Below, piece by piece: positions 1 to 8,762 of a stretch of 51,199 nt of DNA (position 1 is the stretch's first letter; every line of letters begins with the position of its first letter). A program made the position numbers and the translations under genes. The notes below the pieces were generated by a model, which searched no databases, was not told the DNA's origin, and saw only the letters and a list, made by a program, of their open reading frames with translations. The stretch is from a virus: the IMG/VR virus record IMGVR_UViG_3300045612_000261, positions 1 to 51,199 of that record; one strand, 5' to 3'.

Positions 1-870
1 TCACAACAAATGGCTGAATTGATTAATCGTTTAAAGCAAGTTGAAGACGCACCTGCACAACGACAAGTAACAGCTGAAAATGTTTCCTCTATTGGCCATA
101 TGGCTAGGCAACTGGGCACACTTGGGGATGCCATACCCACGTCTGTACAAAGGATTGCTGGGAACACTTGGGATAAAGTGCAAGGTGTTGCTGATAAATT
201 TAAAAATCGTCAAACTGGGCAAGTTGCATCAAGCGATGAGTTAGCAGCACTACCTAAACAAGCTACCAATACTCCTAATTCAAGTAAGCCAGCTACACCA
301 GCTACACCAGCTACACCAGCGCCACCAGCGCCACCAGCTACCTCAGCTACACCAGCTACACCAGCTACATCAGCTACCTCAGCTACACCAGCTACACCAG
401 CTACACCAGCTACACCAGCTACACCAGCTACATCAGGTAAAAAACCTATATCTCCTGCAGCAGCAGCAATCGGAGGGGCCGCAGTGGGTGGAGCAGCAGG
501 CCTCGGTGTAGGCTTACTACCCAATCAAAATCCACCTAAGCCAACGCCTACGCCAACGCCTACGCCAGGACCTACGCCAACACCTGCGCCTGACGGAGGA
601 CAGGTATCACCTACGCCAACACCTACGCCAGGACCTACGCCAGGACCTGCGCCTGACGGAGAAGCGCAACAACCTTCCAGTCCTTTAACTGATAAGGAAA
701 TAGAGGAATTAGAATCTATTGCGAAAGAATTTAGAAATAGTGATGACCCTACTGTATTAAGTCTTTTATCGTACTATAATGGAATTAAAGGATCTTTGTC
801 TGCGCCAAAAGGACAAGTAAAAGAAAGCCTTTCAAGAATAAAATATCTAGCACACTATAAAAATTTTTAA
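1..870 (+). CDS. Pro/Ala/Thr-rich protein, 5' end probably outside window
   Basis: The reading frame is already open at base 1. The first ATG is at 10 and has no ribosome binding site in view, so the gene probably starts upstream. About 90 residues of ordinary sequence are followed by a low-complexity stretch of PAT/SAT triplets, a short Ala/Gly-rich hydrophobic segment (roughly residues 150-170, glycine-zipper-like, possibly membrane-inserting), a second spacer of PTP/GPT units ending in PAPDG, and a compact charged C-terminal segment of about 70 residues. The order globular part, flexible linker, hydrophobic segment, linker, globular part suits a virion or membrane-associated protein, but I do not recognise the family. 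It ends convergently with the zincin-like gene, the two stop codons overlapping. Confidence 0.75.
   Translation, partial: SQQMAELINRLKQVEDAPAQRQVTAENVSSIGHMARQLGTLGDAIPTSVQRIAGNTWDKVQGVADKFKNRQTGQVASSDELAALPKQATNTPNSSKPATPATPATPAPPAPPATSATPATPATSATSATPATPATPATPATPATSGKKPISPAAAAIGGAAVGGAAGLGVGLLPNQNPPKPTPTPTPTPGPTPTPAPDGGQVSPTPTPTPGPTPGPAPDGEAQQPSSPLTDKEIEELESIAKEFRNSDDPTVLSLLSYYNGIKGSLSAPKGQVKESLSRIKYLAHYKNF
288..435 (+). repeat. 9-bp coding tandem repeat (ACCAGCTAC type)
   Basis: About fifteen imperfect copies of a 9-bp unit encode Pro-Ala-Thr, Ser-Ala-Thr or Pro-Ala-Pro triplets. The unit is in phase with the reading frame, so changes in copy number lengthen or shorten the linker without a frameshift. 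A second repeat with CCTACGCCA-type units (Pro-Thr) follows at about 538-660. Confidence 0.85.
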
Positions 871-1504: not shown

Positions 1505-1719
1505 TGATCGTAATATTTGAATGGTTATGCACGGCCATTTTATTAGTAGGGGTAGCTTTGACCAGTTTCAATATATTCCCGTTAAATCTTTGGGTGTTAT
1601 TTATAGGAAACTTGGGTTGGGTAGGACTTGGAATAATATGGCGCAAATGGAGTTTAATAGTGATGCAGACAGTTATTACTCTAATTTATATTGTAGGCAT
1701 AATTAATTTATATGTATAA
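1504..1719 (+). CDS. Small integral membrane protein
   Basis: 71 residues, almost entirely hydrophobic, with two or three predicted membrane spans separated by short polar turns, including WRKW near residue 48. I chose ATG 1504, which overlaps the previous stop, over an upstream in-frame start at 1459 that would lie inside dsbA. It looks like a small membrane protein I remember upstream of polymerase genes in marine T4-like phages, but its function is unknown to me. It would be co-transcribed with the dsbA-like gene and with gp43. Confidence 0.7.
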   Translation: MIVIFEWLCTAILLVGVALTSFNIFPLNLWVLFIGNLGWVGLGIIWRKWSLIVMQTVITLIYIVGIINLYV

Positions 1720-1724
1720 GGCCT

Positions 1725-1772
1725 AGTGAGCCATAAGTCACTGACTTGGTATTTGTGAGCCTAAAGTCACAA
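1725..1772 (+). promoter_or_regulatory. Tandem hairpins, candidate gp43 autogenous translational operator
   Basis: Hairpin 1 (1725-1742) has stem AGTGA/TCACT and the 8-nt loop GCCATAAG. Hairpin 2 (1753-1772) has stem TTGTGA/TCACAA and the 8-nt loop GCCTAAAG. The second abuts the GGGGGG ribosome binding site (1773-1778) of the polymerase gene at 1786. T4 gp43 represses its own translation by binding a hairpin with a short stem and an 8-nt loop at the same place. The two copies differ at two loop positions and share GCC(A/T)(T/A)AAG. Confidence 0.65.
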
Positions 1773-1785
1773 GGGGGGAATATTA

Positions 1786-4455
1786 ATGTATGTAGACGCC
1801 TATTTTGATAGGGAAAATGATATTGTCAAGGTTGTAGAGCGTGATCGCAAAGGTCAACGTATTTTTAAAGAATATCCTGCCAAATTTGTATTTTACTATG
1901 ACGATGCCAAAGGAAAATATGTCAGTATATATGGAACTCCAGTTAGTAGAACTGTTTGTAAAACACAAAAGGATTTTCATAAAGAACTTAAAATAAACTC
2001 AAATAAAAAAATCTATGAAGCAGATATAAATCAAATATTTGTATGTTTAAGTGAGCAATATCTTAATGCTGATGCTCCAAAGTTACACATAGCATTTTTT
2101 GATATTGAAGTGGACTTTAATCCAGAACGTGGATATGCTAGTCCAGATGATGCTTTTATGCCCATCACTGCTATAAGTGTACATTTACAGTGGCTTGATA
2201 CGTTAGTGACATTAGCAGTTCCACCTAAAAGCCTAAATATTAAAGAGGCAGAACAGTTAGTTAAAGACTTTCCTAATACACATCTCTTTGACAATGAAGC
2301 TGATATGTTAGATACTTTTTTAAGCCTAATAGAAGATGCTGATGTAATCACAGGATGGAATAGTGAAGGCTATGATATTCCCTATACTGTAAATCGTGTT
2401 ATCAAAGTATTAAGTAAAGATGATACACGTAGATTCTGTTTATGGAATCATTATCCTAAACGCAAAGAGTATGAAAAATTTGGCAAAAAAGCTGTCACCT
2501 ATGACCTTGTAGGTCGTGTACATTTAGATAGTTTAGAGTTATATCGTAGATATACTTATGAAGAAAGACATACTTATAGATTAGATGCTATAGGAGAAAT
2601 AGAGATAGGCGAATCTAAAACAGTCTACGAAGGTTCCTTAGATCAATTATATAATAATGACTTTACTAAGTTTATTGAATATAATCGTCAAGACTGTTCT
2701 CTGCTTAATAAATTAGATAATAAGTTAAAATTTATAGATCTTGCTAATACATTAGCACATGAAAATACAGTACTACTACAAACTACAATGGGTGCTGTGG
2801 CTGTGACAGAACAAGCAATTATTAACGAAGCACATCGTAGAGGACTCATAGTTCCAAATCGTACTAAAAAATCTGAACGTGATGATGGCAGTGCTGCTGG
2901 AGCATATGTAGCGCATCCTAAAGAAGGTATACATGATTGGATAGGCAGTGTGGATATAAACAGTCTATATCCTAGTGCGATTCGTGCTCTTAATATGGGT
3001 CCTGAAACTGTAGTAGGACAATTACGTCAAACTATGACAGATAATTATATTAATGAACAAATGGGTAAAGGAAAAACTTTTGCTGGTAGTTGGGAAGGTC
3101 GTTTTAGTAGTTTAGAATATGAAGCAGTTATTAATCGAGAGATTGGCACTGAAATTATTATTGATTGGGAAGACGGAACTAATAATATGGTCAGTGCTGC
3201 AGAAGCATATAAATTAATCTTTGATAGTAATCAACCATGGATGCTTAGTGCTAATGGTACTATCTTTACTTATGAAAAAGAAGGAGTCATTCCAGGCTTA
3301 TTAGAACGTTGGAACAAAGAGCGCAAAGAAATGCAGGCCAAACTAAAGGAGGCTATAAATGCTGGAAATAACATCGAGGAAGAATACTGGGATAAAAGGC
3401 AGTTGGTTAAAAAGATTAACCTTAATAGTTTGTATGGCGCTATTCTTAATCCTGGGTGTAGATTTTTTGATAAACGTATTGGGCAAAGTACTACCCTTAG
3501 TGGCAGACAAATTACCAAACACATGGCTGCTAAAATAAATGAAATAATTACAGGTGATTATAACCACGTTGGTCGTAGTATAATTTATGGTGATACTGAT
3601 AGTGCTTATTTTAGTGCCTATCGTGCACTAAAAAAAGAAATAGATAAAGGAATAATCCCTTGGACTAAAGAAACTGTAGTACAACTTTATGATAGTGTAG
3701 CTGAAGAAGTAAACAAGTCATTTCCTAACTTTATGATGGAGGCTTTTCATTGTCCAAAAAGTAGAGGCAGTGTCATAAGAGCGGGCAGAGAACTTGTAGC
3801 CAGTAAGGGACTATTTATTACAAAAAAACGTTATGCTGTACTGTACTATGACAAAGAGAATAAAAGACAAGATGTAGAAGATAAGCAAGGTAAAATCAAA
3901 GCTATGGGACTTGATCTCAAACGTAGTGACACTCCAGAATTTATACAGAACTTTTTAAGTGAAATATTAGAAATGGTACTTACTGGTAAAGAAGAAAAAA
4001 TAATTTTAGACTATATTAGTAAGTTTAGGTTAGATTTTAAAAATAGACCAGGATGGGAAAAAGGTAGTCCACGTCGTGCTAATAATATTACTGAATATGA
4101 TGCAAAAGAACGTAAACAAGGAAAAACTAATATGCCAGGTCATGTAAGAGCAAGTATCAATTGGAATACTTTAAAAAAAATTAACAATGACAAATATAGT
4201 ATGAATATAACAGACGGAGCTAAGGTAGTGGTATGCAAATTAAGAAATAATCCATTGTCCTATACTAGTGTAGCTTATCCAGTGGACGAGCTTAGACTCC
4301 CACAATGGTTTAAAGATTTACCTTTTGATCATGAAGCAATGGAAGATACCATAATAGATAATAAATTAGAAAACTTAATAGGTGTACTTAATTGGAAATT
4401 AAGTAACACAAAAGAAATGAGTACCTTTAACAAGTTTTTTAAATTTAGTACTTGA
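1786..4455 (+). CDS. 43: DNA polymerase, family B (T4 gp43)
   Basis: The replicative DNA polymerase with 3'-5' proofreading. At 889 residues it is essentially full length (T4 gp43 is 898). The exonuclease motifs are visible: Exo I FFDIEVDF (D106, E108), Exo II ITGWNSEGYDIPY and Exo III YNRQDCSLL. Polymerase motif A (DINSLYPSAIR, about residue 389), motif B (KKINLNSLYGA, about 541) and motif C (YGDTDS, about 600) all follow in order with their catalytic aspartates. It works with the clamp gp45 encoded directly downstream. The strong GGGGGG ribosome binding site is flanked by two candidate repressor hairpins. The stop codon overlaps the -35 box of the gp45 promoter. Confidence 0.98.
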   Translation: MYVDAYFDRENDIVKVVERDRKGQRIFKEYPAKFVFYYDDAKGKYVSIYGTPVSRTVCKTQKDFHKELKINSNKKIYEADINQIFVCLSEQYLNADAPKLHIAFFDIEVDFNPERGYASPDDAFMPITAISVHLQWLDTLVTLAVPPKSLNIKEAEQLVKDFPNTHLFDNEADMLDTFLSLIEDADVITGWNSEGYDIPYTVNRVIKVLSKDDTRRFCLWNHYPKRKEYEKFGKKAVTYDLVGRVHLDSLELYRRYTYEERHTYRLDAIGEIEIGESKTVYEGSLDQLYNNDFTKFIEYNRQDCSLLNKLDNKLKFIDLANTLAHENTVLLQTTMGAVAVTEQAIINEAHRRGLIVPNRTKKSERDDGSAAGAYVAHPKEGIHDWIGSVDINSLYPSAIRALNMGPETVVGQLRQTMTDNYINEQMGKGKTFAGSWEGRFSSLEYEAVINREIGTEIIIDWEDGTNNMVSAAEAYKLIFDSNQPWMLSANGTIFTYEKEGVIPGLLERWNKERKEMQAKLKEAINAGNNIEEEYWDKRQLVKKINLNSLYGAILNPGCRFFDKRIGQSTTLSGRQITKHMAAKINEIITGDYNHVGRSIIYGDTDSAYFSAYRALKKEIDKGIIPWTKETVVQLYDSVAEEVNKSFPNFMMEAFHCPKSRGSVIRAGRELVASKGLFITKKRYAVLYYDKENKRQDVEDKQGKIKAMGLDLKRSDTPEFIQNFLSEILEMVLTGKEEKIILDYISKFRLDFKNRPGWEKGSPRRANNITEYDAKERKQGKTNMPGHVRASINWNTLKKINNDKYSMNITDGAKVVVCKLRNNPLSYTSVAYPVDELRLPQWFKDLPFDHEAMEDTIIDNKLENLIGVLNWKLSNTKEMSTFNKFFKFST

Positions 4456-4497: not shown

Positions 4498-5232
4498 ATG
4501 ATTAGAGATATTTTAACTGATATTGTAACACACACATCAATATTAGGCTTTCCTTTCGCTAAAGTTGTTAGCGATAAGAAAACAACAGTAGTTGAAAGCA
4601 TGGATGAAAATCGTTCAGTAATTGTAAGAGCACAGACACATAATCCAGTTCACGAATTTAAAGGAACTTTTGGATTGCCTAATTTAAACATTTTGAACCT
4701 TTTACTTAAAAACCCAGAATATAAGGAAAATCCAAATATTGAAATTATTATTGAAAAAAGAAACAATAAAGATATTCCTGTGAGTATTTTTTTCGAAAAT
4801 GTAGATCGTGATTTTAATAATACCTATACTCTAATTAGTCAGGAAGTAATAAGTGCTAAATTGGCAGAATACGAATTTGCTGAGCCTAACTGGGATATTG
4901 AATTCAATCCCAGTATAATCAGTATACAAAGACTAAAACTACAATCACAGATCCATACTGAAGAAGAATTTTTTAAATCTAAAGTAGAAAAGAAAAATCT
5001 TATAGTTAGTTTTGGTGGAATCGCTAGCACCCATATAGGTAGTTTTGTTTTTCAATCTAATATTGAAGGCAAGTTAACAAATATTTTTAACTGGCCTTTA
5101 CAGGCTGTTATTAACATTTTAAATTTAGATGGGGATAAAACTATGAAAATTAGCGATAGTGGGCTTATGATGATCACTGTAGATAGTGGACTTACAGTTT
5201 ATGATTATATTATCCCAGCAGTAACCAAATAA
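4498..5232 (+). CDS. 45: Sliding clamp, DNA polymerase accessory protein (gp45)
   Basis: A 244-residue protein (T4 gp45 is 228) with the clamp-like alternation of strands and short helices. In T4 the trimeric clamp tethers gp43 to the template and also activates late transcription together with gp33 and gp55. The position directly after gp43, the length, and the N-terminal part resembling gp45 proteins of marine T4-like phages support the call. It has a separate promoter and an AAGGAG site, consistent with a need for more clamp than polymerase. The stop lies one base before the dpdA-like gene, so the two are co-transcribed. Confidence 0.85.
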   Translation: MIRDILTDIVTHTSILGFPFAKVVSDKKTTVVESMDENRSVIVRAQTHNPVHEFKGTFGLPNLNILNLLLKNPEYKENPNIEIIIEKRNNKDIPVSIFFENVDRDFNNTYTLISQEVISAKLAEYEFAEPNWDIEFNPSIISIQRLKLQSQIHTEEEFFKSKVEKKNLIVSFGGIASTHIGSFVFQSNIEGKLTNIFNWPLQAVINILNLDGDKTMKISDSGLMMITVDSGLTVYDYIIPAVTK

Positions 5233-5233
5233 T

Positions 5234-6775
5234 ATGAATACTGACTTAACCAGTACTCAATTAGATTATGCCAAGTTTTTACCTGCTACCAGTTCCTTTT
5301 ATGCAACATTTATAGGTAAACAACGTTATACACACTATGTAGATCCTAATCGTATTCCTAAAAGCTTTATTAATGATATGGAAAGTTTAAACTTTCTTGA
5401 CCCCATTAAAGGTCAATTTTATTATAAATGGTGTTTATACAGTGCAGGACATGCCAATTTAGATTTATCTAAAATATGCTGGCGTGAAGATATGTTCCGT
5501 AATCGTAATCGTACAAATAGTTGGGTGCTTGGTGACAGCGGTGGATTCCAAATTGGTAAGGGTCGTTGGGAGGGAGATTGGAAGAATATTAATTGTCCTA
5601 AAGCTGCAAAAAAAAGACGTCAAGTATTAGAGTGGATGGATACTCTAATGGACTATGGAATGATCTTAGATATTCCAAGTTGGACTAAGAATAAAGAAAA
5701 AACAGGTATTAGTTGTATTGAAGAGGCAATAGCAGGTACACATATTAATAACGAATACTTTATACGTAATCGCAGTGGCAAATGTAAATTTCTTAATGTA
5801 CTTCAAGGTGAAGATCACGGGGAAGCCGATCAGTGGTATAATCAGATGAAAAAATATAGTGACCCCAAACAATATCCCAATGAACATTTTAATGGCTGGG
5901 GTATGGGTGGTCAAAATATGTGCGAAATAGAACTAATATTAAAGAGACTTGTGGAATTAAGATTTGATAATTTATTAGAACCAAAAGTACATGATTGGAT
6001 GCACTTCTTAGGTACTAGTAAATTGGAATGGGCTTTACTATTAACTGATATTCAAAGAGCAATACGCAAGTATCATAATCCAAACTTTACAATTAGTTAT
6101 GATTGTGCTAGTCCTTTCCTTGGAACTGCTAATGGTCAAATTTATTATCAAACTGAAACAATAGATCGTAAAAAATGGACCTATCGTATGGCAGCAGGTC
6201 TTGACGATAAAAAATATAAAAATGATTCGCGTCTATATAAGAATGCAGTTATAAATGACAATAAATTACCTTGTTTTGATAATAGTCCAATAATGGATAA
6301 TATCAAAGTAAATGATATCTGTATATATGGACCTAATGATCTTAACAAATTTGGTAAAAGCAACAAAACTAGCTGGGATAGTTTTAGCTATGGTATAATG
6401 ATGGGGCATAATGTTTATAGACATCTTTATAGTGTACAAGAAGCAAATCGTCAATATGATAATAATCTTTGTCCAGATATGCTAGTATATGAAAAGGATC
6501 GACAAGTTTATGTTAAGGATATAATTAATGCTATTTTTGAAACTTCAGATAAAGATAAAGCTATTAATATAATTAACAATGAAGCAGTACCTCTTAATAG
6601 AATCAGAGGAACAAGAGGAACAAGCGGTCAGGGAGCTTTTAGTTCAATTCCTAATTTTAAAAAATTCTTTTCCCCAAAAACTATTCAAATTGAATTTTTA
6701 GAAAATGAATTTGATCAAAATGCTTATGATGTTTTAGAATCATTTGAAATAGAAGTTGAAAATGACATTGCCTGA
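5234..6775 (+). CDS. dpdA: DpdA-like DNA 7-deazaguanine transglycosylase (TGT family)
   Basis: A 513-residue member of the tRNA-guanine transglycosylase superfamily. The base-pocket motif LGDSGGFQ is at residues 99-106. A segment SYDCASPFLGTANG places D290 where TGT has its nucleophile (FDCV-P in TGT). MGGQNM near 222 resembles the GG substrate loop. I see no CxCx2C zinc site of the tRNA enzymes. Phage proteins of this shape are known as DpdA and exchange guanine in DNA for 7-deazaguanine bases. FolE, QueD and QueE genes lie a few kb downstream, which supports a DNA-modifying role over a tRNA role. It is co-transcribed with gp45. Which 7-deazaguanine is inserted cannot be read from the protein. 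Confidence 0.85.
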   Translation: MNTDLTSTQLDYAKFLPATSSFYATFIGKQRYTHYVDPNRIPKSFINDMESLNFLDPIKGQFYYKWCLYSAGHANLDLSKICWREDMFRNRNRTNSWVLGDSGGFQIGKGRWEGDWKNINCPKAAKKRRQVLEWMDTLMDYGMILDIPSWTKNKEKTGISCIEEAIAGTHINNEYFIRNRSGKCKFLNVLQGEDHGEADQWYNQMKKYSDPKQYPNEHFNGWGMGGQNMCEIELILKRLVELRFDNLLEPKVHDWMHFLGTSKLEWALLLTDIQRAIRKYHNPNFTISYDCASPFLGTANGQIYYQTETIDRKKWTYRMAAGLDDKKYKNDSRLYKNAVINDNKLPCFDNSPIMDNIKVNDICIYGPNDLNKFGKSNKTSWDSFSYGIMMGHNVYRHLYSVQEANRQYDNNLCPDMLVYEKDRQVYVKDIINAIFETSDKDKAINIINNEAVPLNRIRGTRGTSGQGAFSSIPNFKKFFSPKTIQIEFLENEFDQNAYDVLESFEIEVENDIA

Positions 6776-7007
6776 CGAACGCTATCGTGCTCTAGTACAA
6801 ACTAAAGAACTGTTACTTAATTTGTGTAACCCAAAAAAAACTCCACGAGTACCAAGAGTTATACGTGAACATGCCATGTCTGTATTACGGCATTACCCTA
6901 ACGATTGTGATTTAGAAAAGTTAAGTATTGATATGCCAAAATATTTTGCTAAGGAAATAGAACCTGTTACACGTATGTTTATGAAATATGAAAACAAAAA
7001 TGCGTAG
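6762..7007 (+). CDS. Small conserved protein, BPSL0761-like
   Basis: 81 residues starting at ATG 6762 within the last codons of the transglycosylase gene; an upstream TTG at 6756 is less likely. The pattern LPDERYRALVQTKELLLNL, then KKTPRVPRVIREHA, then LRHYPND matches what I remember of a small bacterial family named after BPSL0761, of unknown function. The overlap with dpdA suggests coupled translation and perhaps a partner role in DNA modification. That role is inference. Confidence 0.65.
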   Translation: MTLPDERYRALVQTKELLLNLCNPKKTPRVPRVIREHAMSVLRHYPNDCDLEKLSIDMPKYFAKEIEPVTRMFMKYENKNA

Positions 7008-7887
7008 CCTAATTATTGGTATGGGTATAGGTAAACTATATAAAAATGTTTTAGAAAGTATAGGACATGAAGTTATTACTGTGGATACTAACCCATCTCA
7101 GCACGCTGATTATACAAACTTAAGCCAAGCATTATCAAAAAATTACAAGTTTGATACAACTCATATTTGTACACCTAACTTTACACATGAACCAATAGCA
7201 TTAGAAGTGGTAAATCATACCCGTATTTTGTTTATTGAAAAACCAGGACTGTCTAACAGTGATGCTTGGGATAAGCTAGTTGAAGATAATTCTAATACAC
7301 GTATTGTTATGGTTAAGAATAATCAATATAGAGATAACATAGAAGAAATAAAACAAATTGCTAGTGCCAGTGTAATAGTTGATATAAATTGGATTAATGA
7401 AGATCGCGTGCCAAGTCCAGGTAGTTGGTTCACTAACCGTGAACTTGCATGGGGCGGCGTAAGTCGTGATCTTATGCCCCACTTATTAAGTATTTGGTGC
7501 ATTTTAGATCCATTATATTATAATGCGGATAGAACCCGTAAAGAAGTAAAACAACGTTGGAGTTTAAAAGACCTTACTAGTACCAGTTATGGAACTGCTT
7601 ACCCTGATGGTGTATATGATGTAGATGATTATTGTAGACTTGGCTTCCTCGGTGCTGAAACTATGTGGACTTTAACAGCAGATTGGCGTAGTTTAACACC
7701 TGCTGATATAGGGATTTATTTCCAATTATATACAGGACATAAGCATTCTATTCCATTAGGACTATGCCCAGAAAGCGCTTATAAAACAATGATTATAACA
7801 GCCTTAAAAAACATTGATAACCAAGAGTTTTGGGATAATCAATACTTTATGGACAGTTGGATACATAGTAAAATAGAGAAATTATGA
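7000..7887 (+). CDS. Gfo/Idh/MocA-like NAD(P)-dependent oxidoreductase
   Basis: A 295-residue Rossmann-fold dehydrogenase-like protein. The N-terminus reads LIIGMGIGKLYKNVLESIGHEVITVDTN, a dinucleotide-binding unit. THICTPNFTHEPIALE and FIEKPGLSN follow; the latter is the EKP motif typical of Gfo/Idh/MocA enzymes, whose lysine is catalytic. The C-terminal half should be the substrate-binding domain. ATG 7000 puts the first beta strand at the start; ATG 6988 is the alternative. It overlaps the genes on both sides. Its substrate is unknown. A sugar, cyclitol or nucleotide-sugar is typical of the family, and placement next to an alcohol dehydrogenase and dpdA suggests one short pathway. Confidence 0.75.
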   Translation: MRSLIIGMGIGKLYKNVLESIGHEVITVDTNPSQHADYTNLSQALSKNYKFDTTHICTPNFTHEPIALEVVNHTRILFIEKPGLSNSDAWDKLVEDNSNTRIVMVKNNQYRDNIEEIKQIASASVIVDINWINEDRVPSPGSWFTNRELAWGGVSRDLMPHLLSIWCILDPLYYNADRTRKEVKQRWSLKDLTSTSYGTAYPDGVYDVDDYCRLGFLGAETMWTLTADWRSLTPADIGIYFQLYTGHKHSIPLGLCPESAYKTMIITALKNIDNQEFWDNQYFMDSWIHSKIEKL

Positions 7888-8762
7888 ATAAACTATTAGC
7901 AACAACAGGGAATGGAGTATTTTTTGAAACAAGTATAGCACTTGATCCCGTTCCAATTAATGGTATTCGTGTACGTAGCATTATGACAGGAATATGTCGT
8001 AGTGATATAGATATGATGAATGGCTATTTTAATTCATTGCCATTAGGCATGCAGGGACATGAAGGGTTAGGCGAAGTTGTAGAAGTTGGCAAATTAGTCT
8101 ATGATGTGTTTGTAGGTGATCTTGTGGCCACAAGAGGCGAGCCTGCTTATGCTGATTTTTACAATGTTAGATTTGGTGAATATGTAAAGGTTCCAGAAGC
8201 ACATCCACGCTACATAATTGAACCTGTAGCCTGTGGAGTAAACAGTGTAAACCAATATTATTACCATCTCAAACGTAAAGAAGGTGGAAGATTACTAATT
8301 AATGGTACTGGCTTTTTAAGTTATGTAGCATATATTACACTTAAGATCAGTAATTTTAATTTTGATATTGATGTAATAGGTAATCATCATCATGACTTGT
8401 TTGGATCAGATCATAAAAACACTTATGATGGTGAATATGATGTAATTATGGATTTTAAAGGTAATGATCTTTATGCTATAGCCACTAATGGTATTTTAGT
8501 CAATGCTGTTAGTAAGGTCACAACAAAACAAATTGAAGATCATTTACTTTGGAATTGTGTCACCACTATTCGTCCAAGTCCCCGTAGTAAAACATTCTTC
8601 CAAAGTATGGAATATGCTGTTAAATGGATAAAAGAAGGTCGCTTAAATGTTGACAGATTTTGGACCCAATCCTATAATAGGAACACAGAGTGGCAACAGG
8701 CTTTTCAAGATGGTGCCAACAGACCAACAAATTACGGCAGAGGTTATATTGTATGGCCATAG
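7884..8762 (+). CDS. Zinc-type (MDR) alcohol dehydrogenase-like protein
   Basis: A 292-residue medium-chain dehydrogenase/reductase with a GroES-like N-terminus: MTGICRSDIDMMNGYF, then MQGHEGLGEVVEVG (the GHE motif) and VGDLVATRG. The usual structural-zinc cysteine cluster is not evident, and the cofactor domain is shorter than in typical enzymes of 340-350 residues. C(19-40 region), H and E of the catalytic zinc site appear to be present. It overlaps the upstream oxidoreductase by four bases (ATGA) and the downstream gene by ten. The substrate is unknown. A role in making a modified nucleobase or a sugar is inference from neighbours only. Confidence 0.75.
   Translation: MNKLLATTGNGVFFETSIALDPVPINGIRVRSIMTGICRSDIDMMNGYFNSLPLGMQGHEGLGEVVEVGKLVYDVFVGDLVATRGEPAYADFYNVRFGEYVKVPEAHPRYIIEPVACGVNSVNQYYYHLKRKEGGRLLINGTGFLSYVAYITLKISNFNFDIDVIGNHHHDLFGSDHKNTYDGEYDVIMDFKGNDLYAIATNGILVNAVSKVTTKQIEDHLLWNCVTTIRPSPRSKTFFQSMEYAVKWIKEGRLNVDRFWTQSYNRNTEWQQAFQDGANRPTNYGRGYIVWP

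Follow-up and report, generated by a model that had tools for sequence, protein, structure and literature searches.

Predicted tandem pseudoknots at the ribosome binding site of a viral gp43-type DNA polymerase gene: a candidate translational operator

The DNA polymerases (gp43) of phages T4 and RB69 repress their own translation, and this autogenous repression is the precedent against which we compared the locus described here (PMC3014915). Autoregulation by T4 gp43 is a textbook case, yet little is known of how far it extends outside the near relatives of T4. The T4 gp43 operator is one hairpin, AGCCU-AAUAACUC-GGGCU, with no pseudoknot in evidence; no structure of a gp43-RNA complex was available at the time of review (PMC3014915). 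A second replication protein, the single-stranded DNA binding protein encoded by gene 32, is also repressed autogenously in T4 and RB69, from a pseudoknot of about 28 nt that lies 5' of the Shine-Dalgarno (SD) sequence and nucleates cooperative binding (PMC535899).

We analyzed a stretch of 51,199 bases (the window) of DNA from a large, uncultivated phage, in which the polymerase leader is the gap between an ORF ending at 1719 and the ORF at 1786-4455. The latter encodes a T4 gp43-type family B polymerase (PF00136 and PF03104; phrog_262, E 8e-198), whose best PDB match was the RB69 gp43 structure 1clq (E 5e-62). By polymerase, Sinorhizobium phage Phosso (51%) and Agrobacterium phage Atu_ph07 (47%), both giant phages, are the closest isolates, and the closest relatives overall are uncultivated IMG/VR contigs, one of them 400 kb long. 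The arrangement recalls the T4 and RB69 gp43 operators: a phage polymerase of family B has an RNA structure directly upstream of its SD, with an 8-nt hairpin loop that contains AA. The features are listed below, with PK1 and PK2 denoting the two predicted pseudoknots.

1714..1779, + strand: whole tandem element (covariance model R1, cmsearch 71.7 bits, E 5.9e-20)
1720..1722, + strand: PK1 S1 5' strand GGC, predicted partner GCC at 1730-1732 (128/128 distinct PK1 units have the complement; variants are AGU:GCU and GGU:ACC)
1723..1724, + strand: PK1 L1, CU (L1 mostly 2 nt among relatives)
1725..1729, + strand: PK1 S2 5' strand AGUGA, partner at 1738-1742 (double changes at 5/5 pairs)
1730..1737, + strand: PK1 hairpin loop GCCAUAAG (GCC as predicted S1 3' strand; AUAAG as L3, with invariant AA)
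1738..1742, + strand: PK1 S2 3' strand UCACU (RNAalifold, covariation)
1743..1747, + strand: inter-unit spacer GACUU (loop-to-loop distance 27-30 nt among relatives; 29 in 115/157 leaders)
1748..1750, + strand: PK2 S1 5' strand GGU, predicted partner GCC at 1759-1761 (complement in 117/117 distinct PK2 units)
1753..1758, + strand: PK2 S2 5' strand UUGUGA, partner at 1767-1772 (double changes at 4/5 modelled pairs)
1759..1766, + strand: PK2 hairpin loop GCCUAAAG (GCC as predicted S1 3' strand; UAAAG as L3, with invariant AA)
1767..1772, + strand: PK2 S2 3' strand UCACAA, directly 5' of the SD
1773..1778, + strand: Shine-Dalgarno run GGGGGG (usually AGGAG in relatives), followed by the AUG start codon at 1786
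1786..4455, + strand: DNA polymerase, family B, gp43-like, 889 aa (PF00136/PF03104; phrog_262; 1clq)
4498..5232, + strand: 244-aa ORF directly downstream of the polymerase (sliding-clamp-like by position only, as Phosso has an annotated clamp in a comparable location downstream of its polymerase; phrog_12062, function unknown)

A sequence-only reading had placed two hairpins in this leader, with stems of 5-6 bp and loops of 8 nt, the second of them touching the polymerase ribosome binding site. Both hairpins are present with the stem sizes, loop sizes, and loop sequences it gave, and the 3' strand of the second stem ends at 1772, immediately 5' of the SD run. The interval it had assigned, 1725-1785, does contain the hairpins, but it excludes the 5' partner GGC at 1720-1722, and GGU at 1748-1750 within it had been overlooked. 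Across both strands of the window, hairpins with the loop GCCNNAAN are these two only. Hairpin format and energy are no proof by themselves, since the window has 98 hairpins per strand with an 8-nt loop and at least five Watson-Crick pairs, a common format, and the folding energy of the leader is ordinary (z = 0.43 for 141 nt, and −1.15 and −1.32 for the units alone). Single-sequence thermodynamic folding was not significant and was rejected as evidence; the minimum-energy fold joins the two units to each other, because GUGA/UCAC is common to both. Given the common format and ordinary energy, the question of the hairpins called for a comparison across relatives.

Paired mutations have kept both hairpins intact in many more than a hundred related viruses. 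In the first set of 48 relatives, all polymerases with at least 80% identity were preceded by both hairpins, with arms that had changed yet remained complementary: the first stem occurred as AGUGA/UCACU, GGUGA/UCACC, GCGA/UCGC, GCGG/CCGC, and GCAG/CUGC, and the second as UGUGA/UCACA and UGUCU/AGACA. IMG/VR was scanned with a 17-base pattern that fixed the outer three pairs of the second stem and left two free. This yielded at least 119 stretches, and 148/148 occurrences among the matches listed, some of which came from overlapping records of the same contig, completed both free pairs. Leaders were also gathered by polymerase homology or by a pattern for the start-codon region, with hairpins not required. 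Together with the earlier loci these scans gave 241 distinct leaders, comprising 157 with a regular tandem, 56 with one scored unit, and 28 with none. Many of the 56 have a bulged first stem (e.g., GCUGG/CCGC); some of the 28 have variant or short units, and others come from a divergent clade in which the element is missing. Where collection was blind to hairpins, almost every distinct leader of the clade bore one or more units.

RNAalifold, applied to 70 diverse tandem leaders, returned exactly these two stems, with double changes at 8/8 pairs. Paired cells amounted to 94.7%, compared to 68.6% after shuffling, and covariation reached 0.783, compared to 0.278 after shuffling (0/500 shuffles attained the observed value) and at most 0.164 for slid structures. 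The count of 0 broken pairs holds by construction, as the 70 leaders were picked for having the stems; the variety of pair types does not. This comparative sequence evidence for the two predicted hairpins is decisive, and the proposal survived the refutation test set out with it, namely that relatives should preserve the stems by compensatory changes. A conserved and duplicated structured RNA directly upstream of a gp43-family polymerase, abutting or overlapping the SD, was likewise borne out. The same data bear on the possibility that these are DNA-level elements, either parts of a promoter or operators built from tandem inverted repeats. Such elements would suit a pair of inverted repeats that keep a near-constant distance and precede an early-type gene, but the arms vary with compensation around a conserved centre, whereas a DNA operator would show the opposite; there are G-U cells, the 5' partner covaries with the centre, and the element is always beside the SD. 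This explanation was already disfavoured, and we find it barely credible.

Each hairpin sits within a larger unit in which the loop begins with RCY, in almost all cases GCC, and this triplet is predicted to pair with a 5' RGY. A complement to loop bases 1-3 was found within 9 nt on the 5' side in 245/245 distinct units, whereas shuffled controls gave means of ~32/128 for PK1 and ~26/117 for PK2. Scored on the polymerase tree, SD-proximal units had 168 G-C and 26 A-U pairs and distal units 120 G-C and 2 A-U, with no mixed case. An A at the first RGY position always accompanied a U at the third loop base (194 SD-proximal and 122 distal scored units; leader L290, which has an aberrant first loop, was left out of S1 pair scoring). 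The swap from G-C to A-U took place twice among SD-proximal and twice among distal units, on both sides each time and never in an uncoordinated manner. GCU loops occur with upstream AGU or AGC, ACC loops only with GGU, and GGC only with GCC, and a further subclade is AGU/AGC:GCU throughout. Support for S1 is modest, amounting to about four independent double changes across a pairing of just 3 bp. Units measure ~23-25 nt, with an S1 of 3 bp, an L1 of mostly 1-3 nt, an S2 of 4-6 bp, an L2 of 0, and an L3 of 5-6 nt (NNAAN) with an invariant AA; both L1 and the two N positions of L3 are freely variable, and the hairpin loop is 8 nt in most units and 9 or 10 in most others. We rejected a 3' partner for the loop GCC (the next GGU or the SD), which would leave an L1 of 0 nt and also conflicts with the AGU:GCU units, which covary with their own 5' RGY. 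The assignment of the window element as tandem H-type pseudoknots is well supported by these sequence comparisons.

Since the RGY:loop pairing covaries, the units are better described as tandem H-type pseudoknots than as hairpins of the T4 format. The sequence-only reading had called them the exact format of the T4 gp43 operator, and this part of it does not stand: the T4 operator is a single hairpin, whereas here each loop GCC would pair with its upstream RGY. By inspection, the T4 gp43 leader contains no upstream RGY-type partner for its loop. The core of the gp43 operator loop (UAAC, UAAA, or CAAC across T4, RB69, RB49, and a SELEX variant) is not found in the loop GCCNNAAN of the window, although the 3' NAAN of window-type loops (UAAG, CAAA, GAAA) resembles that core in another register. 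Gene and place are alike, but loop core and fold differ, and the element is therefore set apart from the T4 operator as a variant and not a member.

Measured from the fifth 3' base of S2, the SD core of almost every relative begins at −1 to +5 nt, five leaders carry GGAG within the S2 3' strand itself, and the second unit ends 9-18 nt before the start codon, inserted-ORF leaders excepted. With a strong tandem match defined as a match to covariance model R1 with E below 1e-14, 11 contigs of 164-400 kb that have such a match contain one each, at the polymerase wherever the locus was seen. In a single-unit genome, the one non-chance weak match that was followed up was again the polymerase leader. 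The gene immediately upstream varies across relatives, and the element stays with the polymerase. Hairpin stems, proximity to the SD, the single strong copy per searched genome, and polymerase linkage are shown by the computation, as is, with good support, the pseudoknot pairing. In leaders with an apparently different downstream gene (MEEFN..., MDINEDF...), this gene proved to be a small ORF placed ahead of the polymerase. Such a Cys-rich ORF (57-63 aa, MEEFNTCTECIRPEVCTVRCEC...), with no PHROG match, lies between element and polymerase in L068, L073, L074, L084, L138, L141, and L148, as well as in L237 and L243, and the element then leads the ORF plus the polymerase. An SD beside or inside a stem could also belong to a constitutive structural leader with no dedicated ligand, which would adjust the level of translation or shield the mRNA, and the replacement of PK1 by another hairpin module in some relatives is compatible with this. 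Two units at a near-constant 29-nt spacing speak against it, and the unpaired AA and the RGY/RCY identities, conserved across strongly varying stems, argue for recognition and not mere stability. We consider a purely constitutive leader unlikely.

Compensated stems, conserved loop bases, contact with the SD, and exclusivity to the polymerase leader point to a cis-acting translational operator, which would mask the polymerase ribosome binding site and would probably be bound by the polymerase itself. This is the interpretation towards which we lean, with the repression and the identity of its agent both inferred. A polymerase that regulates itself is the most economical version, since the target is unique and the gp43 proteins of T4 and RB69 act in this way (PMC3014915). 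The argument for polymerase binding is one of analogy in gene and place, as the hairpin of the T4 operator has a different loop, lies at a different position, and is not a pseudoknot. In the proposed mechanism, the second pseudoknot, folded and most likely held by protein, would keep the 30S subunit off the polymerase SD, while the first would raise affinity or support cooperative binding, which the two-unit design suggests. The most likely ligand would be the polymerase; free enzyme, unoccupied by DNA, would bind its own leader and stop further synthesis.

Because the fold is closer to the gene 32 operator pseudoknot of T4 and RB69 (PMC535899) than to the T4 gp43 hairpin, another protein could act on the same RNA switch, such that a single-stranded DNA binding protein like T4 gp32, a RegA-like protein, or a host factor would repress the polymerase. 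The gene 32 operator precedes the gene for such a binding protein and has a single pseudoknot followed by >40 nt of unstructured RNA rich in UUAAA repeats; the window has a tandem before a polymerase, and only 9-18 nt separate such elements from the start codon. One strong copy per genome, at the polymerase only, is also a better fit to autoregulation than to a trans repressor with several targets. We assign a different repressor a minor share of the probability.

H-type pseudoknots with an A-rich L3 beside the SD are a common riboswitch format (preQ1, SAM-II), and tandem aptamers exist. The H-type fold, the A-rich third loop, SD adjacency with sequestration as in preQ1-I and SAM-II, and the paired units would all be in keeping with two mini-pseudoknot aptamers that sense a ligand, e.g., a nucleotide or modified base, and control polymerase synthesis. 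A 513-aa ORF at 5234-6775 contains LGDSGGFQ, by eye reminiscent of tRNA-guanine transglycosylase or DpdA, and had no Pfam or PHROG match. Strand order and conserved core differ from those of preQ1-I and SAM-II, however, and the roughly eight fixed positions per unit (RGY, RCY, AA) are few for a binding pocket; L1 and the NN of L3 are not fixed. Searches of Rfam 15 at gathering and relaxed thresholds gave no match to the element. A riboswitch therefore seems distinctly unlikely to us.

On the polymerase tree, the tandem label changes 6 times, compared to 36.5 when shuffled (L290, L319, and L355 were labelled "none" on this tree yet have one unit). Relatives with 54-65% identical polymerases gave no model match, and in many of them the polymerase begins where the upstream gene stops; autoregulation through the tandem element would thus not be universal. 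No model match was found in Phosso, Atu_ph07, Vibrio 2.275, SCTP-2, 121Q, PA5oct, or T4 under stricter filters, with which weak matches could be lost, and a blastn search of 50,697 phage records with the leader returned chance matches only. We did not find a description of the element in the open-access literature. In a second architecture, the SD-proximal unit is kept and another hairpin module takes the place of PK1. In this module, a conserved GCAUGUAGA comes after a hairpin, which is either GCYC/GRGC or GCCG/CGGC (L311, L318, L328, L348, L375, L395, L411-L463), and in one subclade the form of the module, GUC-N2-GCCG-GACANNAAR-CGGC, could itself be a pseudoknot (GUC:GAC).

We tentatively propose that the element may represent a new class of cis-regulatory RNA in viruses, consisting of tandem mini-pseudoknots that are widespread in a large clade of giant phages, all uncultivated, and dedicated to the replicative polymerase. 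On the two near-identical pseudoknots, two polymerases, or a polymerase and a partner, would bind cooperatively and thereby sense free polymerase. If so, gp43 autoregulation would also exist with a gp32-like RNA fold. The element is compact and highly conserved, and through its hundreds of natural variants evolution has in effect mutagenized the presumed binding site, with RGY:RCY and AA fixed and the stems free. Exact mutants (A-U for G-C) are predicted by the element, which makes self-regulation of a giant-phage polymerase through pseudoknots directly testable, and the element can serve as a sequence marker for polymerase leaders of this clade.

Several further observations concern the neighbourhood and the relatives of the polymerase. 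The ORF at the start of the window (10-870) contains low-complexity Pro-Ala-Thr repeats (TPATPATP...). Two genes 5' of the polymerase, an 85-aa ORF (1247-1504) bears a weak likeness to the T4 DsbA transcription regulator (PF11126, E 5e-4; phrog_639, E 1e-10). Adjacent oxidoreductase (GFO_IDH_MocA) and alcohol-dehydrogenase-like (ADH_N) genes lie near the polymerase at 6988-8762. Polymerases of the clade are also binned in bacterial or archaeal MAGs (L475, L476, L471, L474, and L477; Neomarinimicrobiota, Halobacteroidaceae, Rickettsiales, and others), which are probably mis-binned phage contigs, and a single-unit leader is present in L475 and L476.
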